64,000 bases of DNA, from assembly GCF_000244975.1 (NCBI RefSeq), contig NZ_CM001440.1:4820325-4884324 (forward strand). The letters are read 5' to 3'. Of this stretch, positions 5,055 to 52,231 are shown one piece after another. The notes under the pieces are model-generated. The model had not been told where the DNA came from, did not search any database, and worked only from the letters and a program-made list of their open reading frames with translations. Position numbers and translations under genes: made by a program. Numbering within the stretch: the first letter of the stretch is position 1; the number at the start of each line of letters is the position of its first letter. The stretch is from Saccharomonospora cyanea NA-134. Lineage in GTDB: Bacteria; Actinomycetota; Actinomycetes; Mycobacteriales; Pseudonocardiaceae.

Positions 5055-5094
5055 CCTTCCCCCAGACCGCTGCTCAACTCCCCAAGGAGGAGTG

Positions 5095-7626: not shown

Positions 7627-7648
7627 CGCACTTCCACACCGGAAACGG

Positions 7649-10530: not shown

Positions 10531-10533
10531 TCG

Positions 10534-11651: not shown

Positions 11652-11654
11652 GGC

Positions 11655-25022: not shown

Positions 25023-27197
25023 TCACCCGTCAGCCTCGGCCAGCAACTCGGAGGGCACTCCGGTCCATGAGACATACAGGTACTCACGAGCGCGAGAACC
25101 AGCCACGTAGAGCAGTCCCCGTTCCCGCGCCCATGCGGCGTCACGATCCGGCTCCTCGAGATCCCGAACAAATCGCGGGGGAAGTTCGCGCCGAGAGGCG
25201 CCCACGATCGCGACCGCACGGTATTCGAGTCCTTTGGCGCGATGCATGGTCATCACCCGCACGACATCACCAAGAGCGTTCTCGTCCGTTCCTGCGCCTA
25301 CCTCAGCGACGGGCACCCCGGCCATCGACAGGGTGTGTACCAGGTCAGCAACACCTCGATTCGCCCGCGAGACGACTGCCATCTGCGGCCAGGTCACTCC
25401 GACTTGGCGCCATGACCGGAGTTTGTCGGCCAACGCCGCCTGTTCCGCCGCCGAGCTGTTGAAGCCGCGTGCCTCCGGAGCGGGGCCCCCGAACTCCGAA
25501 CGCGCGCCCGCCAGAGATTCGGCTTCGCCCTCAAGGTCATCCACGTCGTGTCCGTAGGCAACCTTCAGCGACCAACCAAGGATCTCCCGCGAGGTCCGGT
25601 AGTTCACGGTGAGCCGCCGGGAACGGCCCCTCGTTTCGATGCCGTACCGCGACAGGACGATCGGCTTGCCGTAGATCCGCTGGTGTGCGTCACCCACGAT
25701 GAACAGGTCGTCCCTGTCATGAGGCACCAACGCCCGGATGAGTCTCCAGTGGGCCGGATGCAGGTCCTGCGCTTCGTCCACGACGGCGTGGCGGTATCGA
25801 GGAAGGGCGCTGCGCCGAACACCACTGTCGAGCCCAGGGTCGTCGTGCGGATTCAGTTGTGCGGCGATGGTCGCGGCCCGGGCTGCGACCTGCGTGAAGG
25901 TGATCAAGTTCTGGGCGTTGAGGAGTTGGGTGAACCGTTCGAACACCGTCCACAGATCCACCCGTTGAAGCCGGGAGATGCGCCTGCCTCTTCCGCTGCG
26001 GGACGCGGTGAGGTATTCGGCTCGTTCCTCGATTCCTTGGGCGAGTACCACTTCGTTCCACTCGCTCTGCAGGAAGGAGATGTCCCACTTGTCGGAAGCC
26101 GCCGCCCGGGCGGTCTCCCATGCCTGCAGCACGCTCGGGTCATCGTCCCTCCGCGGTGTCGGCCTGGTTCCGTCCCCGGTGCGGAGGATGCGCTGGGCAA
26201 GGGAGTCGATGTTGACGACGTCGACCCGGCGCAGCAGCTCCGGTCCCGCCAGTTCGGTGAGCTGGGCTTCGATGTTCTGCGCCAGGTTGCGGGTGAAGGT
26301 CGTGAACAACACCTTCGCGTCACTGCCCTCCCTGTCGAGGCGTTGTGCGAGGTGCCGAGCCCGGTGGATGGCGGTCACGGTCTTGCCCGTGCCTGCTCCC
26401 CCGGTCACGCGGTAGGGCCCCTTCCAGCCGTCACGGTAGGCGAGCCTGCGCTGCAACGGGTGCAGCCAGATCCGCCAGGCCTTGAGGTCCGCGTCGAGCG
26501 CCGCACGCAGTTCCTCCGGGCTGCCGTCCGTGAGGACGAGCCTGGACTGGGGCCGGTCGAGCGCCCCCAGCAGGTCGCCGGTGTCGATGTCCGGTTCGAC
26601 CTCGGCGATGAGGTCGACCCACACTTCCTCCACACCGCGACCGGCGGCGAGGTCCAGGACCGCGTTCCCCTGCACTCCCGGCAGTTCCTCGGCGACCGTG
26701 AGGAGCTGGTCCTCGTCGGTGATGGCCACCAGGCGTTCGGCGATGTCGTTGTCGATACCGAAGCGCCGGAGGTCACGTGCCCGGACACCGTTGAGGACAG
26801 GACTACGTCGAGGTTGCGTGCTCGACACCGAGCTGGCCCGGGTGATCGCCTCGCCGAGGGCCGCGGCGTCCACCACGTCGAGGGCGCCGGTCACCTCGTT
26901 CACCCCGAAACGCAGCTTGGCCGCGTAGGTGTAGGCATCGTCGTGCGGCTTCACCGCCACGAGCACGTATCCCCCGGCCCGGGGAAGTTCGATGAGAACC
27001 GCGCGCCAGAAATCGGTCACCCGCGCTGTCTTGATTCGCGGATCGGTGACGCCTTCGGGGGTTTTGAGATCGAGCCCGGTCAGGTCGGGTCTCTCCTGCA
27101 GTTTGACCACGAAGTCGAGGACTCGGTTCTTCACCGACCCGTCCAGTGCGGAGTAGCTCTTGCCGAACAGGTCCGACACCACCACGCGAGTACTCAT
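25023..27197 (-). CDS. UvrD/Rep-type SF1 helicase with RelE-like N-terminal domain
   Basis: 724 residues. The helicase core has Walker A VTGGAGTGKTVTAIHRARHL near 265, FTTFTRNLA (motif Ia), VVDEAQDLHPAHWR (motif II, DEAQ), GDAHQRIYG (III), TVNYRTS (IV) and MTMHRAKGLEYRAV (V), ending with a VAGSRAREYLYVSWTG helicase VI region. Residues 1-95 (SDLFGKSYSALDGSVKNRV, later FWRAVLIE and VKPHDDAYTYAAK) have the spacing of a RelE/ParE-like fold. SF1 enzymes translocate 3'-5' on single-stranded DNA; the role of the RelE-like part is unknown. The start ATG overlaps the stop of the giant helicase gene by one base (TGATG), so the two are co-translated. Confidence 0.85.
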   Translation of the reverse strand: MSTRVVVSDLFGKSYSALDGSVKNRVLDFVVKLQERPDLTGLDLKTPEGVTDPRIKTARVTDFWRAVLIELPRAGGYVLVAVKPHDDAYTYAAKLRFGVNEVTGALDVVDAAALGEAITRASSVSSTQPRRSPVLNGVRARDLRRFGIDNDIAERLVAITDEDQLLTVAEELPGVQGNAVLDLAAGRGVEEVWVDLIAEVEPDIDTGDLLGALDRPQSRLVLTDGSPEELRAALDADLKAWRIWLHPLQRRLAYRDGWKGPYRVTGGAGTGKTVTAIHRARHLAQRLDREGSDAKVLFTTFTRNLAQNIEAQLTELAGPELLRRVDVVNIDSLAQRILRTGDGTRPTPRRDDDPSVLQAWETARAAASDKWDISFLQSEWNEVVLAQGIEERAEYLTASRSGRGRRISRLQRVDLWTVFERFTQLLNAQNLITFTQVAARAATIAAQLNPHDDPGLDSGVRRSALPRYRHAVVDEAQDLHPAHWRLIRALVPHDRDDLFIVGDAHQRIYGKPIVLSRYGIETRGRSRRLTVNYRTSREILGWSLKVAYGHDVDDLEGEAESLAGARSEFGGPAPEARGFNSSAAEQAALADKLRSWRQVGVTWPQMAVVSRANRGVADLVHTLSMAGVPVAEVGAGTDENALGDVVRVMTMHRAKGLEYRAVAIVGASRRELPPRFVRDLEEPDRDAAWARERGLLYVAGSRAREYLYVSWTGVPSELLAEADG

Positions 27198-30100
27198 CAG
27201 ACCTGCTTCCCGAACGCCGCCGCGATCTTGCGCACCAGATCCTCCTCGTCGTCGCCTTCATCGAGCAGCCAGGACTGCCAGCCATGACGGCGTAGCCATT
27301 CGTCTCTCTCGTCACAGACGTCGATGACAGTCGCGAACTTCCGCTCGGGCCAGCAGTATTCCACCGGCCACAGGTGGGCCCGAGGATCACCGACCTCACC
27401 ACCGGGCTCGGGATCCGGGATGTCCAGCTCGGCCAGCCGCCTTCCGACCCGAGCGAGCCGGTCGTGGGTGAATTCGATGACGAGTTCCCAGCGGGGAGAC
27501 ACGACATCCACGGTCGCTTTCTCCGTGGCCGGTGGCTGAGCCAGGGGCAGTGACCGGCCGGCGAAGACGTCGAGTGAGCGCCAGGTCCAGCACTCCGCCA
27601 TCCGCATCGGCATGGCATGTGCGTGTCTGGGAAGGGGAAGGAACTGGAGCACGTTCGACCACCTGAGCCAGTCCCGCCACTGCTGTTCGTGGGACCGGCC
27701 GCCCACCTCGCTGGGCCGGTCGTCCAGCACGGTCACCGCCCCGACGGTGTCGGTTCCGGCTCCTTGCGAGCTGCCGACGACCGCGATGGGAAGCCCCGAG
27801 GTACCAGCACAGGAGGCGAGCACGATCGGACCACCACGTCCGTCGGGTCTCCCGTCCCGGGCCCAGTCCAGCAATGTCCGAGGCAGGCTCTCCGGGGCCA
27901 CCTGCGTCGGCGGATGCCTGCGGTGGTTCTCCGAAGCCATGAGAGCGATACAGGTCTGTACCGCCGTCTGTTCCCATACCGGCTCGGCAGGGTCGCGAAG
28001 GTACTCCAGCAGAGCCCGCATCGGGTTTCCCCAGAGCAACGAGGCACGTCTGTCGCCGACTGCGGCTCGGGCGACGTTGACGACCTTGCTGTCGACCAGG
28101 GTCGGTAGGTCGCTGTCGTAGCCGTCGAGCATCCGTGCGAAGTCGTCGACGTCCTGGAAGGTCAGGGACCACACGCGGTACCCCTCGTCGCGCAGGGCGG
28201 CCCGCTTGGCGGCGTCGTCCGAGGTGCGGTCGTTCTCGACCGAGGCGTGGTAAGCCCGCCCGTCGAGGTAGACCGCGACGGGTGAGTCCTGGGCATCCTG
28301 CCGCGTGAACAGGAAGTCGGGTTCCGTCGTAACCCCGCCTGCCGTGACCCGGACCAGGGGACGCACGGTCCAACGGCGCGGCTCCTGGTCCGGGTTGAGC
28401 AGGCGGATGTCGAGTTCTTCGCCTCTCTGGCCTGTCGAACCCGTCCAGGACTGCCCCTCGCCCCGGCTCACCGCGCCTTTGAGCACCTCACGGAACCGGA
28501 GTTCCAGCTCGGAAAGCTGGAGGGAGGAGATGTCGATGTCGGCGACGGTCGGGATGTCCTCCACGGACCAGTTGCCGAGGAGATCGGCGAGCAGCTCCAG
28601 GGCCACGCGCCGATTGGCGTGCTCCACCTCGCCCGGCTCGGCCACACCGAGCAGGCAGCGGTGACAGGCGGCGCGACCTTCGAACTGGCATTGGCAGGCG
28701 CTGAGCACGTCGTGGGCCTGCCGCAGGATGCGGTGCATCCGCTCGGGATCCCCGAAGCGGTCGAGGTAGCCGGTGCCGCCGGGGACCGTGTCGTGCAGTA
28801 CCAGGAACTGCCTGACCCGCCGGTGTTCGTCGGGCATGCGGGCGGTGACGATGTCGAGGTGCTGGGGCGCACCACCGAAGTCCCGGTGCAGCCCGAGAAG
28901 GAGAGCAGTCTTCAACGAGGTGAGCCGAAGGTTGACGTGGAAGGTGGACACGGGAAGCAGCAGCCGCACGGCCTGGGTGGTGATCTCGTGCGAGAGCAGG
29001 AGATCCACCCAGCGTGGTGGGGTTCCCCGCCGTGTCGAACACCATCCGCGATGCCGCACCTTGTCCTCGGCTCCCTGCCGGACGACCCCGCAGTACGCGC
29101 AACTCGGGAACCGCGGTGCCGACGTGTGAGTCCCGGCGACGGAGGTGTCGGGTCCGGGGCGGTCGGCACGGCCGAGGTTGACCGTGCGAACGGTCGCCCT
29201 GCGGACGTACTCGGCGCCGAAGGCGTGGCCCCTGAGCCGCCACGCGCGCTGGATCTGCTCGGAATCCACGTCCACACCGGTGACCGTGGTGAACCGGGTC
29301 CGGGTCCGGTCCTCGCTCTCGTCCTCGATCAACGCCTCGTCACGGCGGTGGACAGCGGAGACCTTCCGTAGTTCGAGTACCTTGTGCACGGCACCGGCGT
29401 CGGCGACCCCGGTCCCCCGGCAGCGGGGACACGAGCCGGGTGCTGGCTCGACGGTCTCGGTTCCCCAGCCACAGTCCGGGCACAACCGCATGTGCCGCCA
29501 ATGCGGCCTGCCGGACGGACCGAGCTCCAGAGCATCGATCTCCACCCGGTATCCCTGGGCGTAGAACACCGCGCCCGGCGCGAACTCCGTGAGGGCGGTA
29601 CGGCTGCCACGCCCGTAGCTGTGTTCGCTGGTGTGGAGCTTCCTGTCGCCCTCGTCGTCGGTGGTCCACCACAACGAGACGTCGAGTTCGGTGTGGTCGT
29701 CGCGCAGGTTGTAGCTCGGGAGCAGGGACAGCTCACCGAGTCCTGTCAGAGCGTTGCGGTTCCACGTGTCACGCAGCATCTGGTTGAGTGCTCTGGACTC
29801 GCCGGACCAGCGGCGGCGGTCCTCGGCCTGGGTGTCGTCCAGGTGCCCCTGCGCGTCGAGGTCGGCGATCGCCTGAGCCAGCTCGCCCAGCCGGTGTTTC
29901 AGTTCGCTGCGCTGCTCGGCCCACCGGGAGACCGCGCGGGCGAGCCTGTCGCGCAGACCCTTCGCGGCGAAGGCGCGCACCGCCTTGTGGACGTCCTCGT
30001 CCACGGCGTCGCCGTAGAGTGCGAGGAACTGCCCTGCCAGGGAGTCGGCTTCCGGGATCACCGTGTCGACGAACTGCCGCAGCCAGCTTCCCTCCGCCAG

Positions 30101-33100: not shown

Positions 33101-33421
33101 CGAGCCCGTGCCCGTGGTAACGATGGTCGGTTCGGCGGCGCCCTCGCGCGTGGAAAGGCGCTCGAACGCCTTCGCCTGGTGCTGGTAGGGCGTGAACCCC
33201 TCCGGCAACCAGTCCAGCGGGGAGCGCCATCTGCGGCTCACCGGATGAAAGGGGGTCCGCACCCGCAGGTACGGGCCGCGGAAGATACCGGTGTCCGGGG
33301 CCATGAGGAACGATTCCAACGCCGCGCGGGCGTCGTCGTCGGCCAGGGCGAAGGTGGTGGACAGGTACTCCGTGACCGCGTGTTTGGTCTCCTCCTCCAG
33401 CAACGACGGGTACATCGGCAC
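27197..33421 (-). CDS. Giant DEAD/DEAH helicase with DUF1998-like zinc region and nuclease-like domain
   Basis: 2074 residues. N-terminal SF2 helicase: [14 protein letters not shown] (motif I, 101-114), [14 protein letters not shown] (II, DEFH at 232-235), VATSATLGG (III) and [13 protein letters not shown] (VI, near 1027). Motif VI is unusually far away because a roughly 600-residue insertion, with CRVCGRSG and CPSC zinc-type pairs, separates the two RecA lobes. A cysteine cluster near 1587 (CQCQF, CHRCLLG) resembles the DUF1998/MrfA C-terminal zinc module. Around 1690-1765, [22 protein letters not shown] and [12 protein letters not shown] look like a Vsr/DUF559-type PD-(D/E)xK nuclease fold. 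GGAAGGAAG precedes the ATG. The 5' gap of about 195 bp allows an own promoter. Probable defence effector or translocase; no exact family is claimed. Confidence 0.83.
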
Positions 33422-33616
33422 TTCCTTCCGGGCCTGGCCGTGTGATCACTCTGCGTGGTACGTCGCTCCCGAGCCGGGTTCCGTTAATGGACGTTACCGA
33501 TTCGCCGCTGTGCCGTGGCCCGGGTGGTGGGCAACCGGGAGGCGGCCAAGGTCACCGAAGGCAGGACCCCGGCCGGCACGTAGCCGTGGCGGGCGGGCTT
33601 CGCTCAGGCAAGCAAC

Positions 33617-34132
33617 TCAGTGACGTTTGCCCAGCCCGGGCAACCCGCCTGTGATCGTGTGGACGCTCGAACTCTCCTCGCTGGTCCTCCGGTCCAGTTC
33701 CGCGGCTTCCCGAGCTCGTGCAGCCGGGGTATCGGGCTGGGGCTCCCGGCGTGCGTTCGTAGATCGGCGCATTACCTTCCGGACACGGTTGAGGCACGCC
33801 GTCGCGTGAGCACGCATGTTGTGGCATTTGGTGACGGCGGGATCGTCCGGATCTTCGAGGTACCGAAGATGCGCTTCGATGTCGGCCACCAGCGCACGGA
33901 GCGTCTCCTGGAGGGCTTCTCCGCGCTCACGGAGAAGCCCTCCAGGAGGCTGTCGGCGCTGTTCGACCATGAACGTCTCGACTTCGGCCGTGACCGCCTT
34001 CGAGCGGCGACGAAGATGAACGACCATGGGATCGGCGATGTCGCGTGCTCGGCGTCTGACCTCGGCTCGCTTGGGGTGTTCGGATGCCATAACCGGTCGT
34101 CGGTTCGCCAGGTATTCATGTTTCAGTCGCAT
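33617..34132 (-). CDS. Small charged helical protein with GGLPGLGKR tail
   Basis: About 171 residues, rich in Arg, Glu and Ala and predicted all-helical, with no recognised domain. The final residues SSVHTITGGLPGLGKRH are almost identical in pattern to the end of an otherwise different protein encoded at 52232-52942 ([17 protein letters not shown]). The tail follows an acidic/basic linker in both, which suggests a conserved C-terminal peptide. The start is uncertain: ATG at 34132 has GGTGAG upstream, while GTG 34144 and ATG 34090 are alternatives. It sits between the ParB-like gene and the giant helicase gene on the same strand. Confidence 0.6.
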   Translation of the reverse strand: MRLKHEYLANRRPVMASEHPKRAEVRRRARDIADPMVVHLRRRSKAVTAEVETFMVEQRRQPPGGLLRERGEALQETLRALVADIEAHLRYLEDPDDPAVTKCHNMRAHATACLNRVRKVMRRSTNARREPQPDTPAARAREAAELDRRTSEESSSVHTITGGLPGLGKRH

Positions 34133-34226
34133 CGACGGACTCACCGGTCAGCACGGCATCCGACCGGGTCTGGCCCCGTATCGGCTGGTGAAATGTGCGG
34201 GCGCGGTGGGGTCTGGAAAGTGGGGC

Positions 34227-35072
34227 TTACAGGTGCAGCGCGTTGGGCTCGTTTCCGCCCTTCTTACTTACTTTGGGCATGGCCTCCTTGGGGGACCGCC
34301 GCAACAGTTTCATCTGACGACCTTCCACCCACGCGTTCCACGCCTTGAGATAGTAGAGAAGGTGCTCCCGTGAGTCGTCACTTTTGCGGTGCCGCTTTCC
34401 CGCCGCGAGATCCAGCATTGTGTTACGCAACGTCAGACGCGGATCGCCGACCTGCAACCCCGCGCCGGTGATCAAGCCTTCGCGCCACGGTGTCTGGTCG
34501 ACCTCGGGCCTCTCCCTCCGCGTGACGTACCAGCCGATGGAGGCAGCGGTCACTGTGATCTTGATGGCACGGCTGATCTGGAGCCCTTGGGTGATGGCGG
34601 TGCGCATTCCAGGGTGCTCTTCGAGCAAACTCAGCAGTTGCAGGTGTGTCACCTGGCTCGTGCCGCCTGACCAGCCGCTGTCGGGTTGGGTGAGGTACAG
34701 GTGGAGACCACGCAACGCAGCGGCCAGGTGGGTTCCGTTGGACTCCCCGGCCAAGGAGAGAGCATCCCGTCCGGTCCGCTTTCGTCCCGTGTCCATCACC
34801 GCGAACGCCGACCGGGGAACCCCGTGTGTCACAGAGATCCGAACAGGTACTCCCGCCTTCTTGATCGCGGCCAGCCGGTGCTGACCGTCGACCAGTAAGC
34901 CGTCCTCGTCGAAGGCGATCCCCTGGTGGGTCAACTGCCACTCGCCACGCTCGATGGCACGCGCGAGGGACGTCACCGTCTGGCTGCTCAAAGGGCGGTT
35001 GTTCGTGTTCTTCTCCGCCAGCCATTTCTCGGCCATCTCAGGTGTTACCGTGCAGATCTCTGTATGCATCAT
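34227..35072 (-). CDS. ParB/DGQHR-domain protein
   Basis: 281 residues. The N-terminal third has the ParB/sulfiredoxin-like signature: an NNRPLSSQTVTSLARAI helix, HQGIAFDEDGLLVDGQHRLA with the DGQHR core near residue 62, and ISVTHGVPRSAFAVMDTGRK. The rest is helical, without a recognisable HTH. Similar proteins are frequent in actinophages and genomic islands; some ParB-fold proteins hydrolyse nucleotides or cut DNA. It follows the DUF262 gene by 76 bp on the same strand, and that protein carries a related DGQQR motif. Its lower GC hints at a phage origin. Role in the locus unknown. Confidence 0.72.
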   Translation of the reverse strand: MMHTEICTVTPEMAEKWLAEKNTNNRPLSSQTVTSLARAIERGEWQLTHQGIAFDEDGLLVDGQHRLAAIKKAGVPVRISVTHGVPRSAFAVMDTGRKRTGRDALSLAGESNGTHLAAALRGLHLYLTQPDSGWSGGTSQVTHLQLLSLLEEHPGMRTAITQGLQISRAIKITVTAASIGWYVTRRERPEVDQTPWREGLITGAGLQVGDPRLTLRNTMLDLAAGKRHRKSDDSREHLLYYLKAWNAWVEGRQMKLLRRSPKEAMPKVSKKGGNEPNALHL

Positions 35073-35148
35073 CGAAGTCTTTTCAAGTCGCGGTGGACAG
35101 CGAGTGGGCGTAGCGCTAGATCATCGGGAACAGGCGTATTGTCCGCCT

Positions 35149-36957
35149 CTACTTCCACTCCGGTGCATCCGGCCCGGGCCAGATGTCGATCAGTCGCTGT
35201 GCCAGCCATTCGCCGCGCTCGTCGATGGCTTCCTCGTTCCACTCCTCCCGCCTGGAGAGACGGGAGTTGAGCAAGAGCACGCTGTGCTGGTTCAGGGCGG
35301 CGCGTTTGGTTTTCCAGTCGGAATTCGACATCGCCGCGTTGAGCGGGTGAGTCACGATGGTGAGATTGCCGAGCCTGTGCAGCCGTGCCGCGCGTGCGTC
35401 CTCTCCGGAGGGGCTGGCGGAATCAGGAAGCGGCCAGTGGGTTTTCCAGTCCTGTGGCAGCAGGTGTTCCAGTGTCAGCTTGCGGTCGCTGGGCAGGTGT
35501 TCGGACTTCTCCGCGCGTAAGCTTTCCTCCACCGCTGCTAGCGCCATGACGATGCGAGGCTGGGACACGGTTCCGTAAACGTCCCTCGTCATCAGGAAGT
35601 CTCGGAGCTCCTCGTCGTCCGGCCAGCGACTCACCATCGCCGCCGAGCCCGCGAGGCCGGCATGGAGTGCGTCATCGGCGTGTTCGAGATTCTCCTTGAG
35701 CTTCCCGACGAGCGTGGGAATGAGCCGGTTGTAGTTCTTCGCCGTCATCCGCATCAGCGCGCGTCGAGCCAGCCATGATTCGAGCATGTGCAGAGCTCGC
35801 CGACGACGGTGCGTGCTGACTTCGGGGGAACGGAACAGCAGCAGGACGATGGGCAGGACCGTACCCGCGTCCAACAGCGTCAACCGCGCGAAGAAGCGGC
35901 CTTCCGGCGACTCGGCGGGAAACTCGTCGAAGGAGCGCATCACTGCAGCATCGGAACACAGCTCGTTGATCAACGCCTTCGCGTCGACGCCGCCCGTCAG
36001 CACACGTTTGTTGAACGTCGCGAACAGTTCCGTCGCCGGGATGACATTGCCCAGTCGCATGGTGAGCCAGTGCATCAGGAAAAGCTCGCCGGTCGGCCGG
36101 TTGAGCCTGCCCTGACGGCGCTTCTGCCGCCAGTAGTCGTCGTCGAGCTGGGGTCGCCACACGTGCTCGTACAACGCGTCCGTGTCGTGACTCTGGTTGG
36201 TCGCGAGGCGGAACACCGCGTTCTTCACCAGGTCGAGAGACAGCAGCGGCGTACCTCGTGCGTTGAGGGTCTCGAAGATCACCTGGGCGTTGTCGCCGGG
36301 TTCCAGCGTGATCGACACGACCTTGAGCAGGTCGCACAGCGTGATCCGGAGCTGTTCGGCACGTTCGGAAACCGGTCGGTCGTCGGGGTCCTCGTCGTCC
36401 CCGCCACGCAGATAGTTGCCGATCTGCGTTGTGAAGTAGTCGAACGCCTCGTCGATGAGGTTGCTCGGGTCGTCCCGACGGCCAGGTGGTGGACCGTCGG
36501 CGGACATGACTGCGACGAATGCCTCTCGGTTGGCGTTCGTGGGCCATACCTTCAGCAGGTCGGTTCCCTTGGCCTTGCGTGGGTTGTTGCTGATCAGTTC
36601 GCGCAGGATCTCCGCGTCGTTGTCAGCGCCGACCTCGGTCATGGCCTTGGCGGCCGCGGCCACGAGCAGTTGCAACGTGGTGAGGCGCTGCTGACCGTCG
36701 ATGACCGTGAACCGGGGAATCCGGCCCGGAGCTGTCTGCTCCTGGTCGAGCACGATGGCACCGAGGAAGTGGGACCATTGGGCGTAGTTTCCCAGGCCTC
36801 CCGTGTCTTCCTGATGGTGCAGCAGAGCGGTGATGTCCTGCCACAGCGGTCCCCACTGTTCCTCCTCGTTCCAGACGTACGGGCGCTGATAGAGAGGGAC
36901 GATGTAACGGACGTCGCGCTCGAACAGTTCCTGGACGGTGTGGGTGGCGGGCTTCAT
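35149..36957 (-). CDS. DUF262-DUF1524 protein (GmrSD-like type IV restriction nuclease)
   Basis: 602 residues. The N-terminal DUF262 domain has FERDVRYIVPLYQRPYVWNE, FLGAIVLDQ and FTVIDGQQRLTTLQLLVAAA (the DGQQR nucleotide-binding loop). The C-terminal DUF1524 domain carries the HNH-like set KLTLEHLLPQDW and RLHRLGNLTIVTHPLNA with a downstream N and K. The single-chain layout matches GmrSD/BrxU-type enzymes, which cut DNA with modified cytosines using NTP. Start ATG 36957 overlaps the methyltransferase stop as ATGA, with GGAGGAGAG upstream, so expression is coupled to the methyltransferase. A frame open further upstream is not used. Substrate modification is inference. Confidence 0.85.
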   Translation of the reverse strand: MKPATHTVQELFERDVRYIVPLYQRPYVWNEEEQWGPLWQDITALLHHQEDTGGLGNYAQWSHFLGAIVLDQEQTAPGRIPRFTVIDGQQRLTTLQLLVAAAAKAMTEVGADNDAEILRELISNNPRKAKGTDLLKVWPTNANREAFVAVMSADGPPPGRRDDPSNLIDEAFDYFTTQIGNYLRGGDDEDPDDRPVSERAEQLRITLCDLLKVVSITLEPGDNAQVIFETLNARGTPLLSLDLVKNAVFRLATNQSHDTDALYEHVWRPQLDDDYWRQKRRQGRLNRPTGELFLMHWLTMRLGNVIPATELFATFNKRVLTGGVDAKALINELCSDAAVMRSFDEFPAESPEGRFFARLTLLDAGTVLPIVLLLFRSPEVSTHRRRRALHMLESWLARRALMRMTAKNYNRLIPTLVGKLKENLEHADDALHAGLAGSAAMVSRWPDDEELRDFLMTRDVYGTVSQPRIVMALAAVEESLRAEKSEHLPSDRKLTLEHLLPQDWKTHWPLPDSASPSGEDARAARLHRLGNLTIVTHPLNAAMSNSDWKTKRAALNQHSVLLLNSRLSRREEWNEEAIDERGEWLAQRLIDIWPGPDAPEWK

Positions 36958-39900
36958 CGGCTCTCCTCCCTGGCGAGGCGGCGGGTGAAGTCGGCGTAGG
37001 CGGCACGCATTTCCTGCTCGCGGTCCACGGGCGTGATCGGGGCTTCGTAGCGGTCGAGCAGGTCGCCGCAGTCCTCCCCATTGAGGTAGGCCTGGAGCAG
37101 CTTGAAGTCCTCGGGCCGCTGCTTGACGCCGTGCGCGTGGTGATCCTTGGCGATCTTGCGGCCGAGGTTGTCGAAGTACATGTTGTACTCGTACTTGCGC
37201 AGCACGGCGAACTGCCCGCGATACATGAGGCAAAGCTGGTCGGCGGTGAGCCCGAGCATGATGGCCACCAGCGCGTCGATCTCCACCAGCGCCGCCCGGC
37301 GTTCGAACTCGGACCGCAGCGGGGTCTCCATCGTCCACTCGCGCTTGGTGACGCCGAGCTTCGGCCAATCGGCGAACGGCCCGGTCCACGAGTCGTCGGC
37401 GAAGCCAGGTTCGTACAACTCCTCCCACAGCGGCGCGTAGTCGCGGGTAAGGCAGTTCAGGCGCAGCGTGCGGAGGAGGAGGTACGGAGCGGCGCGGTGG
37501 TCGAGGGGCGCGGGGAAGCGACGTATGAACTCGTTGTAGATGTTAGCTTTTCCGCTGACTTTTACAAGATAGTCATAAACTATAGACGAAAGCAGGCCTA
37601 CTGCCAAACTGGTTTCCCTCATGGAATTAGCTGCAAGGCTATGCACACCCCCTGTGTGAGCGGGCCCTGGCGGAATAATTGCGGCGTGCAATGAACGCTC
37701 AAGCCCTTCCTGTGTCATCTTCCGCCAGGCGAGGCGGTAGTAGTCCGTGTACGGGCGGCCGTTCCATTGGGTGAGGCCCGCTTCGTAGCGGTCGCGTTCG
37801 CAAGCGCGCTGGTAGTTGGTACGCGGGATCACCCGCTCCGGCAACTCCTCAAGATCCCAGTCGGAATAGTCGAGGTTGCTCTTGCAGTTCTCGTTCGGTT
37901 CCTTGGCGAACGGTGTCGCGACGGAGAACTGCGGCCCTTGCAGGATCACCTCGCCCCATTCGGACGCGTACTCGGTGCGCCACTCGATGTACCCGTCCTC
38001 CTTCGCGCCTTTCTCGTGCCATCCGCTCGTCCACTCGTAGTCCAGAGCAGTCATTCGGGCTCGTTGATCGGAGACAGCGGCCAACGCTTCAAGTTGCTCA
38101 CTCGTGCCCGGTCGCAGCAGGCGAGCTTGCGCGGCGGGTGTTCCCGGTGCGTCGAAGAGCGCGGCCCATTGGGCCAGAGTCTGTTCGGTGATCTCCACTA
38201 CCCGGGAGGCGTGGGGTCGCAGGTCCCAGCCGCCGGCCGGGTACTGGATACCCGGTGCATCACCGGAGCCGTCGTGCTCCAAGGAACCTTCGAGCGTTGA
38301 GGGTGTCAGCAGGTTCGCGACCTGCAAGAACCGAATGGCGCTCGCAGCACCGTAGATATGAACACCGTAGATCGTGTGATGGTCAACGTCGGCGAAGAGC
38401 TGTGCTTCGTTGATGAACTGCCAGTGACGCCTGAGTCGCTTGTATGTCTCAGCCCGTAGCTTGCCGGCCTTCGGGTCGGTGAAGTGACTCTCCGGGTGTA
38501 ACAATCCAACGATGCCCGTCGCTCGCATCGAGCGCCAGGAACGTTCCATGAAGCTCGTGTAGAGATTGGTCTGGACTCCCGACAGGATCGGATGCTCGAC
38601 AGGTGAGCCGAGGTGCTCGTTCAACCCCGACCAGGACGCGAGTTCCCCGAGGTACTGCCGTTCGGCTCCCGGCTTGGCCAGTACCTCCGCACGGCGCTTC
38701 CGGAAGGTCGCGTCGGGGATCTTGTCCTGCAACACGAAGAACGGTTCGAACTCCGCGAGTGTCTCGTCGTCCTTCCACGTCGGCCGCACCCACGGCGGGT
38801 TACCGAGTTGCAGGTCGAACCCGCCTCGGCTGAACACCTGCGCGAAGTCCAGTTCCCAGTGGAAGAACGCCTCCTGCCGCACGATCTCCCGCACCACGCC
38901 GAGCCACCGATGCTCGGTGTGCAACGTGGTGACGTCGCGCATGAGGTAGTACGTCTTCTCCAGATCGTCCACATCGGCAAGTTCGTGAAAACCGTCGACG
39001 GTCTCGATGAACTCCACCTGGTTGCCCGGTGCCGCCTTGCCCGCCACGCCGAGCAGGCCCTCCAGCGTGGTGAGCCACTGACCGAGGTCGGGCGGTTCGA
39101 CGTCCGTGGTCACCGGCCAGAAGAACAGCGCACACCAGGCGTCCATCGCCAGCCGCAGCCGCTGGTACGGACCTTCCGGATCACGCAGTCTGTTCTCGAC
39201 CTCTTCCCGGCTCACCGCCGCGCTCTCCTGCGGCAGGTCCGCGCCCCACACGTCGATGCTGCGCGCCACCTCGCGTTCGCTGATCTCCAGCCTGCGCCGG
39301 GTCAGCTCCCACAGCCGTTCCACCCGCCGCGCGAGGCCCCGCAGGCGTTCGATCTCCTGCTTGCTCGGCTTGCGGGTGACGGCCTTGTACCACTCCTTGA
39401 GCCGCGCCACCTTCTCCGGCGCGAGCTCCTTGGCCTGCTTGGCGTCCTTCACCGCACCCCACCCGGAGGCGGGCAACAGGAAGTGATGGATCTCGCCGTC
39501 GGCGATCGGCCCCTCGGCCAGAGGGCGGTCGGTCGGCACGGTCTTGAGCCAGCTCTGCTTCGCCCGCCCCAGCGACGTGAGGTCGTAGGTGGCGCGGCGC
39601 GCGCCGATCAGCGAGTTGCCGCGCTTGAGATGCAGACCGAACCACGGGGCGCGCAGGCCCTTGTGCATCACGTTCAACCACAGCGACACCTCCGCCAGCT
39701 CGCGGGCGGTGTCGTTCAAGTCCACGCCGTAACAGCGGTGCAGCGCCAGGTAGGCCTTCACCTTCTGCAGCTCGTCACGGTACGACTCCGGGTCGATCGT
39801 GGTGTCCAGCTCGCGTTGCCGCCGCTTCAGGTACTCGTCGGCGAGCTGGTTGATCGCCTCGTTGAGGAACGCGCCACTGCCCATGGCGGGCTCACACACC

Positions 39901-41615
39901 CGGTAGTCGAGGAGGTCGCGCGCGGGCGTGTCGTCGTCGATCAGCTCGGCCAGCGAGTGCTTCACCACCGTGCGGGTCAGCACCTCCGGCGTGTAGTACG
40001 AGGCGCTGCGCTGCCGGTCGCGGCCCGAAAGGCGGTAGACGAACGTGCCCGCCGGGTGCACGACGAAACTCTTCTCACCGGTCAGCGGGTCCTCCCGCCG
40101 CACCACATGCTTCTCGTCGTACTCGCCCAGCTTCTCGCGCTCCACCAGCCACGTGCCCTTGGCCGGATCACCGTCCTTGGCGAGCTCCACCAGCTCCCGC
40201 TCGGCGATGAAACCGCTGTAGGCCATCAGCCCCTCGTACACCGCGCCGAGCTGGTTGATGCCCAACTGCGCGTACGACACGTAACCCGCCTGGCCGCCCT
40301 TGCGCTTCGACGGCTTCGACAACAGCAGCAGCGCCAGCACCCGCTGCAACACCGCGTTGCTCAAATCCACGTTGTCGATGTGGTAGGCGTGCCGCCGATC
40401 GAACAGGTCGGCCCGCAGCGGCTCGAACACCAGGCCGTCGCTGTCGGCCTCGCCCGCGTGATGACCGGTGTTGACCAGGTTGAACAGCAGCCGCAGCGAG
40501 TCGTGCAGGTGGTGGCCGTCGCGCGAGGGACCGGTGAGCGGGCGCAGGATCAGCTCCCGCAGCCGGTCGAGGCCGTAGCCGACGTCGTAGTCCGGGTCCC
40601 CGGCCGGGAGGATGCCCAGCTCCGGCCGCGCCTCCGCATACAGCAGGAACAGGATGCGGTAGAGGAACCGCAGCGACTGCGTGGTGAGCTCGCGCGGCAA
40701 CTCGGGGATGCCCTCCACCGGCTCACCCTTGGCGCGCCGCTGCCGGATCACCTCGTTGGCGATCAGCTCCACCGACACCCGCAGGCCCTCCCGCAGGTCC
40801 TCGCTCACGCCCACCGCGTGCTTGACGGAGTCGTCGGAGAACTCGCCGAGCAGGCTGTGCCCGTCCTCCGAGGGCAGGAGCACGTCCGCCGACACCAGAC
40901 CGGCGATCCACGCGAGTTCACCGGCGGCCTTGTCGTCGCCACGCGACAACGCGGTGTCGAGGTCGAACGCCAGGTACCTGCCCTCAGCCCAACGCTCTAC
41001 ATCGGACAACACCAGCCAGCCACCCGCCAGCACCAGCACGAAGCGGGGAGCGTGCTCGGTGAGAAAGAGCTGCTGCACCGCCTTGCCGACCGACTCAACC
41101 TCATCCACTTTGGATGCTTCGGTGCTTCCGCTGCGGACCCGGACGGGAGCGAGCAAGGCACCCTGCCGATCGGTGATCCTTCCAGGATGCTCGGGGTCCT
41201 CCTCGGCGACGGCTCCGAACAGGTCGTCGACGTCATCCACCGGAACCGCCTGGAGCACGTGCAGGGCCTCACCCGACGGCGACTGCGCGCGGGCCAGCAA
41301 CGGCACCCACACCGGGGTTTCCGACCGCCGCGTCTCCAACTCGGTGGGCGCGGCTTCGAAACCCAGTGCCTTGAGCACGAGCGTGTGCAGCTCGGTGACG
41401 GCCTCGGCGTAACCGTCCTGGTGTGGTCGCGGGAGCGCGGCCTTGGCCGAGAGGAACCGCCCGGCCACCCCGGACAACGCCTTCAGCGGGCTGTGCTTGC
41501 CCCTGGTGGTGCGCTCCCGCCAGTCCTTCGTCAACTGCCGGAGCTTGCCGGGGAACGCTTCGGAGAGCCAGTGCGGCGACAGGAAGTCACCGACGTTGCG
41601 GATCGAGTCGTACAT
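36954..41615 (-). CDS. Eco57I/PglX-like adenine-specific DNA methyltransferase
   Basis: 1553 residues. N6-adenine methyltransferase motifs: YRVCEPAMGSGAFLNEAI (motif I, SAM binding, near 572) and LQLGNPPWVRPTW (motif IV, NPPW, near 938). About 360 residues separate them, more than usual. The N-terminal 500 residues are helical and resemble the N-terminal region of BREX PglX and DISARM DrmMI proteins. The C-terminal third should hold target recognition. No PD-(D/E)xK motif is obvious. It presumably marks host DNA so that the locus spares self. A block of roughly 100 bp at 37541-37640 falls to about 43% GC, unlike the rest of the gene. It begins 28 nt after the SNF2 gene. Confidence 0.87.
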   Translation of the reverse strand: MYDSIRNVGDFLSPHWLSEAFPGKLRQLTKDWRERTTRGKHSPLKALSGVAGRFLSAKAALPRPHQDGYAEAVTELHTLVLKALGFEAAPTELETRRSETPVWVPLLARAQSPSGEALHVLQAVPVDDVDDLFGAVAEEDPEHPGRITDRQGALLAPVRVRSGSTEASKVDEVESVGKAVQQLFLTEHAPRFVLVLAGGWLVLSDVERWAEGRYLAFDLDTALSRGDDKAAGELAWIAGLVSADVLLPSEDGHSLLGEFSDDSVKHAVGVSEDLREGLRVSVELIANEVIRQRRAKGEPVEGIPELPRELTTQSLRFLYRILFLLYAEARPELGILPAGDPDYDVGYGLDRLRELILRPLTGPSRDGHHLHDSLRLLFNLVNTGHHAGEADSDGLVFEPLRADLFDRRHAYHIDNVDLSNAVLQRVLALLLLSKPSKRKGGQAGYVSYAQLGINQLGAVYEGLMAYSGFIAERELVELAKDGDPAKGTWLVEREKLGEYDEKHVVRREDPLTGEKSFVVHPAGTFVYRLSGRDRQRSASYYTPEVLTRTVVKHSLAELIDDDTPARDLLDYRVCEPAMGSGAFLNEAINQLADEYLKRRQRELDTTIDPESYRDELQKVKAYLALHRCYGVDLNDTARELAEVSLWLNVMHKGLRAPWFGLHLKRGNSLIGARRATYDLTSLGRAKQSWLKTVPTDRPLAEGPIADGEIHHFLLPASGWGAVKDAKQAKELAPEKVARLKEWYKAVTRKPSKQEIERLRGLARRVERLWELTRRRLEISEREVARSIDVWGADLPQESAAVSREEVENRLRDPEGPYQRLRLAMDAWCALFFWPVTTDVEPPDLGQWLTTLEGLLGVAGKAAPGNQVEFIETVDGFHELADVDDLEKTYYLMRDVTTLHTEHRWLGVVREIVRQEAFFHWELDFAQVFSRGGFDLQLGNPPWVRPTWKDDETLAEFEPFFVLQDKIPDATFRKRRAEVLAKPGAERQYLGELASWSGLNEHLGSPVEHPILSGVQTNLYTSFMERSWRSMRATGIVGLLHPESHFTDPKAGKLRAETYKRLRRHWQFINEAQLFADVDHHTIYGVHIYGAASAIRFLQVANLLTPSTLEGSLEHDGSGDAPGIQYPAGGWDLRPHASRVVEITEQTLAQWAALFDAPGTPAAQARLLRPGTSEQLEALAAVSDQRARMTALDYEWTSGWHEKGAKEDGYIEWRTEYASEWGEVILQGPQFSVATPFAKEPNENCKSNLDYSDWDLEELPERVIPRTNYQRACERDRYEAGLTQWNGRPYTDYYRLAWRKMTQEGLERSLHAAIIPPGPAHTGGVHSLAANSMRETSLAVGLLSSIVYDYLVKVSGKANIYNEFIRRFPAPLDHRAAPYLLLRTLRLNCLTRDYAPLWEELYEPGFADDSWTGPFADWPKLGVTKREWTMETPLRSEFERRAALVEIDALVAIMLGLTADQLCLMYRGQFAVLRKYEYNMYFDNLGRKIAKDHHAHGVKQRPEDFKLLQAYLNGEDCGDLLDRYEAPITPVDREQEMRAAYADFTRRLAREESR

Positions 41616-41643
41616 GCCTTGCCGTGCCTTTCGTGGGTCCGCG

Positions 41644-44523
41644 TCACGCCGTCCGGTGGTCGGGGACGATCAACCCCACCACGCGCACGAACGGCTCGCC
41701 TGCGGCGGCGAGTGAGTCGATGAGCCCGGAAACCTCGTCGCGGGTGCTGGTGACGTCGTCCTTGCGCTTGGAGCCACCCGCCTGCTCCACCACGAACAGC
41801 GCCTGCTGCTCCCAGCGCGACAACCGCCTGCGGTGCTCGTCGAGGCGCTCCAACAGGGTGCTCTCGGCCTCGTGCCGGTGTCGGCGCAGGTCCTGTGTCG
41901 CGGCCGCCACCGCGTCGGGCACGAGAGGTTGCAACCTCTCGATCCAGTCGGCCACTCCACCCGGGTTGCGGGCGTGCTCCTTCAGCCCGGCGCGCTCCAG
42001 CGCTTCCCGCAGGTCACCGACCTCGGGGGCGTGCGGCAGGCCGGTGATCGCGCCCCAGCGGGTCAGCACCGGCTGCCCGAGGGAGTTCGCCCACGTCGCC
42101 TGGGTCAGGAACACCGGTTCCGGCACCGGCGCGGCCATCACGGGGGCCTGGTTGCGCCCGAACCGGGCGAGTGCCCTGCTCGTCGCCCACTCCAGTACCG
42201 GATGACTCGGAGCCAGGTAACCGACGTCCGGCCACAGGGTCTTGCCCTCCGCGCGTGCCCGGGCCAGCCGCTGCTCGGCGAACCGGCGCTGGGCCGACAC
42301 CCGGATGCGCCGGGACACCTCCCTGTCGCGCAGGTAGCTGTCCGGCAGGTCCCGCAGCCGTTCGGCCAGGTCCGCGGGCGTGTCGAACGCGAGCAGATCC
42401 GTGTCCTCGTCCCGGTGGATGTCCAGCCGCCCTGGGCTGTCCGTGATCTCGTGCAACGCCTCGGCGAGGAAGTTGTCGTCGTCGTCGAACAGGGTGCTGC
42501 GAGGCGCGGTCGGCACCGGCGGATCGTCGGCGTGCTCGCCACCCGTGGCGAGCAAGGCGGCGAACGGGTTCACCTCCTCCGGCTCCTTGATCGCGGTGTC
42601 GAGGTCCTTGTCCTGCTGGAGGAACTCCATGATCCTGTCCTCCTCGATGTCCGCGTCGCGGACGTCGAGCAGTGCCCCGGCGTCGCCCAGTGCCTGGTTG
42701 GCGGCGTGCTCCTTCTCCAGCAGCTTGGTCACCACCCGCAGATCGCTCACCGTGTCGGCGTTGTGCGAGGTCAGCGCGAGCGCCGCGATACGCGGCTCGT
42801 GCTCCTGCAGGTAGCGGTCGATACGGCCGTTGCGCTGCTGGATCCGGATGAAGCTCCACGGCAGGTCGTAGTGCACCAACTGGTGACACTGGCGGTGCAG
42901 GTTCAACCCCTCGGAGGCCATGTCGCTGGCCAGCAGGATGCGCAGCGGGCTGGTCTCCAGCGCGAAGTCCTCCACCACCTGCTGCACGTCCCTGTCGTTG
43001 AGCTGCGCGTGGAGCAGCTCAACGGCCCTCTCTGGCAGCCGGAGCCTGCGGCGCAGCTCGTCACGCAACCACTCCAGGGTCTGGATGCGTTCGGAGAACA
43101 CCACGACCCTCGTGTCGCTCCCCTTGCCAACACCGATGTCGGCGAGGTGTTCCAGCAGCGCGTCGAGCTTCGCCGCGCCCCGCCGCTCCGCCGCCTCGGC
43201 GAGCTCGTCGAGCCGTCGCAGCGCCGCCACCTCGGCCGCGCCGTCAGCCCTCGCACCCAACGTCTTCACCCTGCGGCGAATGCTCTCCCGCAGCGCCCGG
43301 GGCGAAGACAGGAAAGCCTTGAACAGGGTCCACGGGAACAGGGTCTTGCCCCGGCCCGTCACCGGTGCCTGCCCGGCAGGCGGGCGGAGCCAGGTGTGCG
43401 TGAGCTCCTCCAACACGGCCTGCTCCTCGGCCGTCGGGTCCACCGGGACTATTTCCGGGTCACGCCGGGGCGCCCACCGGTGCCCGACCTCCAGCTTCAC
43501 GTCGGGCGAGTTGCGGTGCCTGCGGACGTAGAGGTGCTCGATGTCGGAGGCCTTGTAGTCCTTCGGGTCGGCGATGGCCGCCGGGTCCAGCAGCCCGATC
43601 AGCTCGGCGAACGACTCTCGCTTGCCGTTGTGCGGAGTGGCGCTGGCCAGGATGAGAGCGTCGGTCTGGCGGGCCAGCAGGCGGGCCAGGTCGTTGTTCT
43701 GGGTGCCCTTGTTGATGAGGTTGTGGCACTCGTCGATCACCACGACGTCCCAGCGGTGGCCCGACAGGTGATGCTGGTAGCGCGCCGGGTTCTTCAACGT
43801 GTCGATCGAGACGATCACACGCTTGTAGTAGCTGAAGGGGTTGCGCGTAGCGGGCAGCGTCTGCCGCACCTTCTGGATACCGTCCGAGTCGAGCCGCACC
43901 AGCGGGATCGAGTAGCGCGTCCACATCTCGCGCTGGAACTGCTCCAGCACCGCGCGAGGGGTCACCACGAGGATACGGTCACCACGACCGCGTTCGATGA
44001 GCTCGGTGAGCAGGATGCCGATCTCCAGCGTCTTGCCCAGCCCCACCGCGTCCCCGATCAGGATGCGCGGGCGCAGGTTCGACAGTGCCTGGTGCGCGGG
44101 CCGGAGCTGGTACTCCATCGGGTCGGCCAGGCCACGGTGCCCGGCCACGATGCGAGTGTCGGTGGCCGGGGTCGGGCTCTGCCGCAACAGCGACTCCAGC
44201 CACAACCGTGAGCTGCGGAAACCCGGGCTCTCGTCGGGGACCAGCTCGGTGCGGCGGGGGTCCAGCACTTCGATGGTGTCCAGAGAGCTGTAGAAGACGG
44301 CGTCCTGGTCGCGCACCAGCTCCGATGCTCCCGTTGCCTCCACACGCAGGTCGCCGCGCGCGGTGCGGCGCACCGAGCGCACCAGCCACTCCTCGTCGCG
44401 GACGACGATCTGGGAGCCGGCCGCGATGTCGGCCTCGTTCTTCTCCGGACCCTGCACAAGCTCTGTCACGCACGTGAGGCTAGTGGCGGAGGCCAGACGG
44501 GAAATGTCGTGCTGTTGGCTCAC
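41644..44523 (-). CDS. SNF2/RapA-type SF2 helicase (DrmD-like)
   Basis: Up to 959 residues. Walker A GDAVGLGKTLEIGILL at 157-172, DECH box VVIDECHNL at 262-270, SAT motif LILASATPHNGK at 290-301, and the C-terminal lobe VVVFSERIQTLEWL, LLASDMASEGLNLHRQ and IQQRNGRIDRY. The layout resembles RapA and DISARM DrmD, which are dsDNA translocases. It is the first gene of the minus-strand defence unit. The GTG at 44523 has no ribosome binding site; a GTG at 44469 with TAGCCT seven bases upstream would be a leaderless start and is at least as likely. The adjoining methyltransferase gene is the usual DrmD neighbour in class 1 DISARM. Confidence 0.87.
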   Translation of the reverse strand: MSQQHDISRLASATSLTCVTELVQGPEKNEADIAAGSQIVVRDEEWLVRSVRRTARGDLRVEATGASELVRDQDAVFYSSLDTIEVLDPRRTELVPDESPGFRSSRLWLESLLRQSPTPATDTRIVAGHRGLADPMEYQLRPAHQALSNLRPRILIGDAVGLGKTLEIGILLTELIERGRGDRILVVTPRAVLEQFQREMWTRYSIPLVRLDSDGIQKVRQTLPATRNPFSYYKRVIVSIDTLKNPARYQHHLSGHRWDVVVIDECHNLINKGTQNNDLARLLARQTDALILASATPHNGKRESFAELIGLLDPAAIADPKDYKASDIEHLYVRRHRNSPDVKLEVGHRWAPRRDPEIVPVDPTAEEQAVLEELTHTWLRPPAGQAPVTGRGKTLFPWTLFKAFLSSPRALRESIRRRVKTLGARADGAAEVAALRRLDELAEAAERRGAAKLDALLEHLADIGVGKGSDTRVVVFSERIQTLEWLRDELRRRLRLPERAVELLHAQLNDRDVQQVVEDFALETSPLRILLASDMASEGLNLHRQCHQLVHYDLPWSFIRIQQRNGRIDRYLQEHEPRIAALALTSHNADTVSDLRVVTKLLEKEHAANQALGDAGALLDVRDADIEEDRIMEFLQQDKDLDTAIKEPEEVNPFAALLATGGEHADDPPVPTAPRSTLFDDDDNFLAEALHEITDSPGRLDIHRDEDTDLLAFDTPADLAERLRDLPDSYLRDREVSRRIRVSAQRRFAEQRLARARAEGKTLWPDVGYLAPSHPVLEWATSRALARFGRNQAPVMAAPVPEPVFLTQATWANSLGQPVLTRWGAITGLPHAPEVGDLREALERAGLKEHARNPGGVADWIERLQPLVPDAVAAATQDLRRHRHEAESTLLERLDEHRRRLSRWEQQALFVVEQAGGSKRKDDVTSTRDEVSGLIDSLAAAGEPFVRVVGLIVPDHRTA

Positions 44524-51714: not shown

Positions 51715-51841
51715 GGCTCTCTCCTCGCGAGCTCGACGGCGGCACCGGACGCGCGACGGCGGCCTCGCAGGCGAGCGGGTGGCGACGCGACGTCGCCGAA
51801 CCACTCGTCCGCCAGGGTCACCCTCGAACGCCCGGAGGTCA

Positions 51842-51860
51842 CGCACACCGGCGGTGTGCG
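51842..51860 (-). promoter_or_regulatory. Hairpin at the 3' edge of the riboswitch
   Basis: CGCACACC-GGC-GGTGTGCG: an 8-bp perfect stem with a 3-nt loop, whose upstream arm on the minus strand overlaps the closing stem of the riboswitch by about four bases. Mutually exclusive pairing would give an expression platform. There is no U tract, so it may act on translation or with Rho. Confidence 0.45.
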
Positions 51861-52078
51861 CACCGGTGGCAGGTCTTCGGACTCGCGGGCACGGCCCGGC
51901 TCCCACCGGGGCTCCTACTGACCGTCGCTTCCCAGACCGTGTGGCCCAGTGCGTTGGAACCGGTCGAGCGACCGGCCACGGCGTTCGTTCCCACTCACCG
52001 CTGCGGGGCAGTCCCGGATTCCCACCGGGTTCCCTCTTGCCTCGCCCACCGCCTCGGCGGAAGGCGAACCACCAGCGC
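51857..52078 (-). promoter_or_regulatory. Cobalamin riboswitch upstream of metE
   Basis: The minus strand carries the conserved cobalamin aptamer blocks in order: GGTGG closing arm, GGGAACCCGGTGGGAATCC, ACTGCCCCGCAGCGGTGAG, GGAAGCGACGGTCAGTAGGA and the B12-box-like AGTCCGAAGACCTGCC, closed by CCACC. The ends pair (GCGCTGGTGG with CCACCGGTGCGC). It lies about 140 nt before the metE start on the same strand. Adenosylcobalamin or related corrinoids should bind and lower metE expression. Confidence 0.92.
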
Positions 52079-52231
52079 GTCTCACTGTAGTGACGCCGGG
52101 GTGCTTGACAAGGGAGCCCGACCGAGCGGTTCGCCTGCCTGCCGTCGCCCGTAACACCGTGCGCCTCCGTTCCGACAAAGTGGCGGACATCACCTCGGCG
52201 GTCGCCCCGCGGCTCGGAAACGGAGGAACGG

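Follow-up and report, generated by a model that had tools for sequence, protein, structure and literature searches.

We analysed a 64,000-bp stretch of Saccharomonospora cyanea NA-134 (NZ_CM001440.1, positions 4,820,325 to 4,884,324), hereafter the window, which has a GC content of 68.7% and comes from a genome of 5.4 Mb in one contig. Seven open reading frames (ORFs) occupy positions 25023 to 44523, all encoded by the minus strand. Judged by homology, four of them are the core of an ARMADA type II defence system, armA to armD, and the other three lie between armB and armC (Table 1). The number, order, and strand of the genes agree with an earlier reading of this DNA made from the letters alone (the sequence-only reading). 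In the direction of transcription, the gaps are 28, -4, 76, 82, and 201 bp (with ATG 33415 taken as the armC start), and the last two genes overlap at TGATG. Both coupled pairs named in that reading were found, the first as an ATGA overlap at 36954-36957, as were its gaps of at most about 200 bp. The genes may form one operon, the weak link being the stretch of about 800 bp with the doubtful 175-aa ORF.

Table 1. Features of the ARMADA type II locus in the window, in the direction of transcription.
Feature	Coordinates	Strand	Basis
armA: SNF2/RapA (BrxHII/DrmD-like) translocase, 959 aa	41644..44523	-	Pfam SNF2-rel_dom, Helicase_C
armB: PglX/YeeA-like N6-adenine methyltransferase, 1553 aa	36954..41615	-	Eco57I; NPPW
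Type IV restriction nuclease of the GmrSD family (DUF262 + DUF1524/HNH), 602 aa	35149..36957	-	GmrSD_N 2.7e-33, GmrSD_C 2.3e-26
Phage/plasmid-type ParB-fold protein (phrog_5931), 281 aa	34227..35072	-	phrog_5931 5.4e-62
ORF of 175 aa ("tailed small protein"), doubtful gene	33617..34144	-	weak codon periodicity, no relative found
Perfect 19-bp inverted repeat, 6-nt loop	33905..33948		longest perfect hairpin (spacer 3-20) of the window
Stretch of about 90 bp before armC, conserved in the cargo-free relative L054; right edge of the slot	33416..33507	-	blastn of the window against L054
armC: YprA/DruE-like giant SF2 helicase, MZB (DUF1998), C-terminal Vsr-like region, 2072 aa	27197..33415	-	DEAD, Helicase_C, MZB
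armD: UvrD/GajB-like SF1 helicase with a fused RelE-fold N-terminus, 724 aa	25023..27197	-	UvrD; RelE fold

ARMADA type II is described in a 2025 preprint by Bell et al. (PMC12458937) as a strictly ordered set of a BrxHII-like SNF2 protein (ArmA), a PglX-like methylase (ArmB), a YprA helicase that carries a Vsr-type nuclease (ArmC), and, in nearly all cases, a RelE-UvrD protein (ArmD). It was tested experimentally in Escherichia coli, with strain NCTC 12900 and phage HK022 named there. All four proteins of the window have near full-length homologues in E. coli ATCC 8739 (locus L068): ArmA at 518 bits (35% identity over 963 columns), ArmB with 36% over 1570 columns (805 bits), ArmC with 30% over 2195 columns (738 bits, as against 126 bits to E. 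coli DruE), and ArmD, RelE-UvrD in both, with 34% over 737 columns (344 bits). The order A-B-C-D is the same in both genomes, with no ORF between armB and armC in E. coli and three in the window.

The window keeps all eight residues mutated by Bell et al.: ArmA K164 (the Walker lysine) and D264, ArmB G579 and N939, ArmC K109 and D232, and ArmD K272 and D474. Residue numbers in the preprint refer to strain NCTC 12900; mapped onto ATCC 8739, they fell on the expected letters. In ArmB, N939 is within the NPPW motif and G579 is the S-adenosylmethionine motif position. The C-terminal region of ArmC is Vsr-like in alignment, with D1702, D1720, H1725, and other residues invariant among nine aligned sequences. 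Its ORF opens with GTG 33421, but ATG 33415 is the likelier start, because of a better-placed purine-rich stretch and the N-termini of relatives. For ArmD, the predicted model of residues 1-125 (pLDDT 86) best matched RelE/YoeB toxins (1wmi, 6.2e-5; 2khe, 1.6e-4). A profile search of solved structures with this part gave weak RelE matches (1wmi, E 0.08; 2khe, 0.21), and no Pfam model matched it at E 0.01. Since the model matches these toxins best and Pfam finds UvrD, the earlier "RelE-UvrD" name holds.

Profile searches of all seven proteins, as proposed in the sequence-only reading, gave these domains in Pfam: SNF2 and Helicase_C, an Eco57I-type N6-methylase, GmrSD_N and GmrSD_C, DEAD with Helicase_C and MZB, and UvrD. 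As for systems, Pfam, PADLOC, and NCBIfam alone gave only fragments of several (DrmD-like, type IIG methylase, DruE-like, UvrD/GajB-like). ARMADA type II thus names a locus that a 2023 library matches piecemeal, as DrmD-like, type IIG, Orf5/HEC-06, DruE, and NERD with UvrD/GajB. The set had been held unassignable to any named system, which no longer stands: four of the seven genes correspond to ARMADA type II in its published order. From the proposed seven-gene composite, there remain a four-gene core and three additional ORFs between armB and armC. The antiphage function predicted for it has good support, since the core is homologous to the experimentally tested ARMADA II. The kinship to class 1 DISARM, seen in the SNF2 protein and the PglX-like methylase, is the same that Bell et al. 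give for ARMADA (PMC12458937).

DISARM, BREX, and Druantia were considered and rejected. Class 1 DISARM shares a DrmD-like SNF2 protein and a PglX-like methylase, but ArmA reached 310 bits against a DrmD cut-off of 610, and ArmC is a full YprA protein; DrmB and DrmC were not among the matches listed for the seven proteins, and DrmA models gave at most 69 bits on ArmC. For BREX, neither PglZ nor BrxC was among the PADLOC matches listed for the seven proteins (the best 25 each), as noted before (the rest of the genome was outside this search). Druantia has a giant helicase of the same YprA family (PADLOC DruE3, 319 bits on ArmC), but ArmC matches E. coli DruE over domains only, and the partner genes of Druantia differ, none being among the matches listed. 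As for Hma, ArmA scored only 169 bits with HmaA, less than with several DrmD and BrxH models, and HmaB and HmaC were not among the best 25 PADLOC matches listed per protein.

The first of the three inserted ORFs, labelled earlier as a DUF262-DUF1524 nuclease, was confirmed by Pfam as a GmrSD enzyme, with DUF262 (DGQQR) and the DUF1524 HNH domain within one protein. In PADLOC, it matched Orf5 (4.9e-92), mREase_IV (2e-60), and HEC-06 (4.4e-60, nearly full length), and a search of solved structures matched three DUF262 proteins. It is predicted to cleave DNA with modified bases. Its embedding has precedents. BrxU of the pEFER BREX island, also a GmrSD-family DUF262 and DUF1524 enzyme, shares its operon with a PglX methylase and is encoded between brxC and pglX (PMC8565348), whereas the window enzyme follows the ARMADA methylase and overlaps the armB stop. 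HEC-05 and HEC-06 are embedded in Hma, as cited from Payne et al. 2024 (PMC11411939, PMC12988326); the host system here is ARMADA, not Hma. Auxiliary nucleases also occur within BREX loci (PMC12839542).

The core is known, as is the embedding of GmrSD enzymes in defence operons; what deserves attention is the preference of ARMADA cargo for one junction. In the accessible text, Bell et al. report a strict gene order and mention no slot, and DUF262, GmrSD, and ParB are absent from the main text (PMC12458937). We found no report of an armB-armC slot in the literature searched, with the supplements of Bell et al. and most subscription journals outside reach.

ArmC was matched at 1e-30 in 21 of 100 related genomes; in 11 of these (own genome included) the match covered most of the protein, and in 10 the helicase parts only. 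The sequence-only reading would have been refuted by loci in which the SNF2-methylase pair alone, or the two 3' helicases alone, travel together. Instead, all four core genes were together and in the order A-B-C-D in 10/10 long-match relatives other than the own genome, and the middle three varied. The expected seven-gene order did not recur, as all seven genes were together in 0/110 loci compared.

Slot contents turn over among near relatives: the window and three close relatives, with core proteins 71-90% identical, have four different slot contents. The window slot contains the GmrSD gene, the ParB-like gene, and the 175-aa ORF. That of G045 (L055), the only one of the ten near relatives with GmrSD in this place, has GmrSD alone, 63-64% identical, with DGQQR, EHLLPQ, and RLGNLT retained. 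It shows the ATGA overlap as well, and its DNA aligns with the window without a break from armB to the end of GmrSD. Because of this continuity, independent acquisition by the window and L055 was dropped; the DNA comparison shows that GmrSD was inherited in place together with armB. In G005 (L054), whose ArmC is 88% identical to that of the window, armB and armC are 439 bp apart, and no trace of a GmrSD remnant was found in that slot. Homology between the window and L054 (blastn) ends at the armB stop and resumes at about 33507, some 92 bp before armC. The outer edges of the slot share merely three 9-mers, so there is no sign of site-specific integration. In the simplest history, GmrSD would have been present in the ancestor of the window and L055 and lost in L054, and the ParB-like stretch would have come later, in the window lineage.

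The third close relative, G007 (L056-L058), has an armB interrupted by an in-frame stop and about 25 kb between this gene and armC. This interval, partly masked, encodes Z1 and GHKL-ATPase proteins, and no GmrSD match was found there. In the other seven near relatives, armB and armC are 9-81 bp apart (tblastn).

For a wider census, we took the best 80 loci from a profile search of genome contigs with the ArmC alignment A1 (more exist). Distances were measured with flanks of up to 10 kb, and A-B and C-D were traced within these flanks. Insertions of at least 1 kb were found in 0/39 loci at A-B, 20/53 at B-C, and 1/77 at C-D, counting loci where both genes were seen (Fisher, B-C against A-B and C-D pooled, p = 7e-11, with relatedness ignored). 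Sequence of at least 9 kb before armC was available for 63 loci, 13 of which showed no ArmB. We searched for ArmB and ArmC in the whole genomes of these 13 and three more loci (n = 16). Ten had ArmB on the same contig, 9,745; 10,740; 11,087; 12,371; 14,358; 14,390; 14,408; 17,412; 20,416; and 31,215 bp off (9.7-31 kb); in the other six, ArmB and ArmC were on different contigs, which gives no information. Overall, B-C reached at least 1 kb in 30/63 measurable loci, 17 of the best 80 not being measurable. Second ARMADA II copies in G486 (B-C of 21 bp) and G489 (close) were not counted. The armB-armC junction is the preferred cargo slot of ARMADA II in related bacteria. The sample was actinobacterial and Streptomyces-rich, so there are fewer independent insertion events than loci. 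The sole C-D distance of at least 1 kb (3163 bp) belonged to L137 (Prescottella subtropica), which had a GmrSD-like match at 10467-12110.

To list the cargo, we called ORFs by codon bias upstream of ArmC wherever at least 500 bp lay there, even if ArmB was not in view. This gave 179 proteins in 109 clusters; 32 proteins were scanned, and other loci were assigned by cluster membership. GmrSD enzymes were cargo in L055, L073, L132, L133, and, on the opposite strand, L112. In L146, a GmrSD gene stands directly before armC, with ArmB beyond the contig end. Nsn proteins of Menshen (NsnABC) were cargo in L102 (scanned), with relatives in L085, L088, L089, L106, L117, L126, and L142; one of the three genes is missing in L088. 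DUF262 proteins of either kind were in 12/30 occupied slots, namely those just listed apart from L055 and L146. Judging by their domains, Nsn and ptuXYZ would be the same system. Menshen/ptuXYZ resembles the window in its DUF262 proteins (PMC11980606), which are also in the armB-armC slot of Streptomyces, but it is absent from the window and its DUF262 protein is without the HNH domain.

Further cargo included HEC-01 (L114, scanned), AbiE (L115), a ShosA-like DprA with a weak PsyrT match (L076), a PtuA/AriA-like ATPase (L109), a caspase-helicase (L145), and HATPase and HTH regulators. Some scanned cargo, as in L079, matched nothing. The glycosyl hydrolase of L124 may lie outside the slot; its placement is doubtful because ArmB and ArmC are on different contigs. 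A divergent regulator pair, HATPase_c_2 (cluster of 14) and HTH_31 with DUF5753 (cluster of 12), was seen upstream of armC, often beside cargo (L088, L094, L106, L114, L126, L142, and others).

A tree of 28 GmrSD rows placed the slot enzymes at four separate positions: the window with L055, L132 with L133 (on a very long branch), L073, and L146 with the C-D insert of L137. Free-standing or neighbouring GmrSD enzymes sat between them, and the simplest reading would be repeated entry into the slot. The relative in L150 (67% identical over the matched part) was left out, since its reading frame is interrupted.

DISARM genes were also found at ARMADA loci. In L089 (Streptomyces sp. BK208), DrmA (683 bits) and DrmB (257 bits) are in the slot on the same strand (3843-8851). 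No DrmD passed the cut-off in this genome, the best match (165 bits) being at the ArmA position, directly upstream of ArmB; drmC was not recognised beside drmAB, the next gene encoding an SF1-helicase-like protein. In L097 (Mycolicibacterium peregrinum), drmA-drmB (69-2431) lies directly upstream of armA, and no DrmD in the genome passed the cut-off, the best match again being at ArmA. This cut-off is strict, and since just 1/14 control genomes reached it, a divergent DrmD could score below it; DrmMI was outside the search of both genomes. The two loci are possible DISARM-ARMADA hybrids by gene content. In L096, L099, and L116 (Arthrobacter, Pseudarthrobacter), DrmA/DrmB relatives follow armD at a distance of about 1.5 kb and are encoded by the opposite strand (about 20.1-25 kb). 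The L096 genome has a separate DrmD-like protein of 365 bits, below the cut-off.

Taken together, we read the locus as an ARMADA type II system with an embedded GmrSD nuclease as a second defence layer, to which we give a probability of about 0.8. This reading rests on the near full-length homology, the identical order, the eight conserved positions, the RelE fold, the order in ten of ten relatives, the GmrSD motifs, the ATGA overlap kept in L055, and the separate tree positions of the slot enzymes, with BrxU in BREX and HEC-05/HEC-06 in Hma as precedents. For this strain, we infer the activities, their complementarity, and their regulation from the homology, gene order, and motif conservation observed. 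ArmB would mark host DNA by N6-adenine methylation. ArmA, ArmC with its helicase and Vsr-type nuclease, and ArmD with its RelE fold and SF1 helicase would recognise and process unmarked invading DNA, so that the cell survives. GmrSD would cut modified-base DNA and catch phages that evade ArmAB-dependent recognition by DNA modification, as BrxU does for BREX. Such complementary action, argued by analogy, has in our view an even chance of being right. The ParB-fold gene would be a later, phage- or plasmid-derived arrival, possibly regulatory.

Several observations weigh against this reading. Mutations of ArmD D454 and ArmB G605 in E. coli had a partial effect only (PMC12458937), and ArmB matches the PADLOC REase_MTase_IIG model PDLC03611 over its whole length (1071 bits). 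Two-domain GmrSD enzymes are a minority of the cargo identified at other loci, and part of that cargo, such as the WXG100 protein in L148, probably has no defence role. L054 lacks GmrSD despite its close ArmC, so the enzyme is dispensable for ARMADA retention. Moreover, the strongest precedents, BrxU (PMC8565348) and HEC-06 (PMC11411939), work independently, and GmrSD could likewise be no more than a passenger.

This last possibility deserves as much credit as complementary action, and it is compatible with the ARMADA II identity. The armB-armC junction would then merely tolerate insertion, and the cargo would be independent genes using the armAB transcript, functionally unconnected to ARMADA. 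The wide variety of the cargo, some of it on the opposite strand, suits such a view, as do the GmrSD-free L054 and the enzymes that act alone. However, insertions of at least 1 kb fall almost wholly at one of three junctions, so this view must explain why they avoid A-B and C-D, for instance by tight coupling within those pairs. The ATGA overlap of armB and GmrSD, kept in the window and L055, also weighs against it.

An unlikely alternative is that ArmA-ArmB are a shared recognition and marking head and ArmC-ArmD a tail, with the slot holding alternative effectors that use the same head. The slot is exactly between the SNF2-methylase pair common with DISARM and the other two genes (PMC12458937). 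The main support for this alternative, a thin one, comes from L089 and L097, with drmA and drmB in the slot or directly upstream of armA and neither with a DrmD over the cut-off. However, the lack of a recognised drmC beside drmAB of L089, a search that did not extend to DrmMI, and the strictness of the cut-off weaken this support, and the L096 genome pairs its drmAB downstream of armD with a DrmD-like protein of its own. Menshen-like and AbiE systems probably work on their own, which also counts against this alternative. We are more doubtful still of its full form, a head-slot-tail machine in which the slot is a socket for swapped effectors (GmrSD, Menshen-like, DrmAB), one methyl mark serves several systems, and GmrSD would be the effector plugged in here.

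It is very improbable that ArmB works by itself as a type IIG restriction-modification enzyme within an otherwise ordinary defence island. Its whole-length type IIG match points that way, but its score against E. coli ArmB (805 bits) and the recurrence of the A-B-C-D neighbourhood do not, and the PADLOC class may simply include ArmB, since the 2023 database predates ARMADA. An unrelated, new seven-gene system, suggested by co-oriented genes with gaps of at most 201 bp, is the least credible of all, as the four-gene core recurs without the insert and the full set, the ParB-like gene, and the small ORF recur in none of the 110 loci, with GmrSD in the slot of one near relative.

With ARMADA type II and an embedded GmrSD as the preferred reading, extra genes are seen to favour a single site within this recently described defence system. 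The slot is thus a source for finding defence genes by position ("guilt by embedding"). It also raises the question of whether embedded enzymes use the methylase and translocase of the host system or merely its transcript.

The second inserted ORF, the ParB-fold gene, was absent from the compared loci (0/110). By tblastn at 1e-5, its protein was found in 90/50,697 phage records, 20/72,556 plasmids, and 3/100 related genomes (own included). DGQ.R was invariant among 15 aligned sequences, and the best fold match was a ParB N-domain (5k5d, prob 0.99, E 1.2e-3, TM 0.30), with nothing at E <= 0.001. A search of solved structures with the protein or its alignment gave nothing useful. The earlier "ParB-like" label is borne out on the motif and the fold, more weakly than the other labels. 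The nearest relative (66%, L066) comes from a part of G057 in which the core genes were looked for and none was seen.

The third ORF, the "tailed small protein", is doubtful as a gene. Its GC at the three codon positions was 0.73/0.52/0.68, against a third-position GC of 0.78-0.92 in the other six genes, and its ribosome site was not clear. No Pfam, PADLOC, or NCBIfam match was found, and a PHROG match was weak (0.0019). It was unmatched in the phage collection and in 295 other genomes (own genome only of 296), and was found in 0/110 loci. This stretch is probably non-coding, with a strong hairpin: the inverted repeat inside it has an RNA fold z of -7.1 and one site in the own genome. The hairpin is a possible terminator or protein-binding site; that the ParB-fold protein binds it is a guess. 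A promoter and terminator scan of the slot, which covered sigma-70 sites and T-tract terminators only, gave nothing above shuffles. The conserved stretch before armC (33416-33507) is a possible armC promoter or leader.

A Pfam scan of ten ORFs that flank the locus (17686-52374) found no integrase as a sign of a mobile element; six matched (HTH, LysR, FAD oxygenase, protein kinase, DUF2252, and MetE) and four had no match. The sole tRNA of the window is at 1719. An Rfam scan of the window gave nothing beyond this tRNA and a cobalamin riboswitch (RF00174, 81 bits; 51851-52088, minus strand), which lies upstream of metE (ORF 49426-52374), a known pairing.

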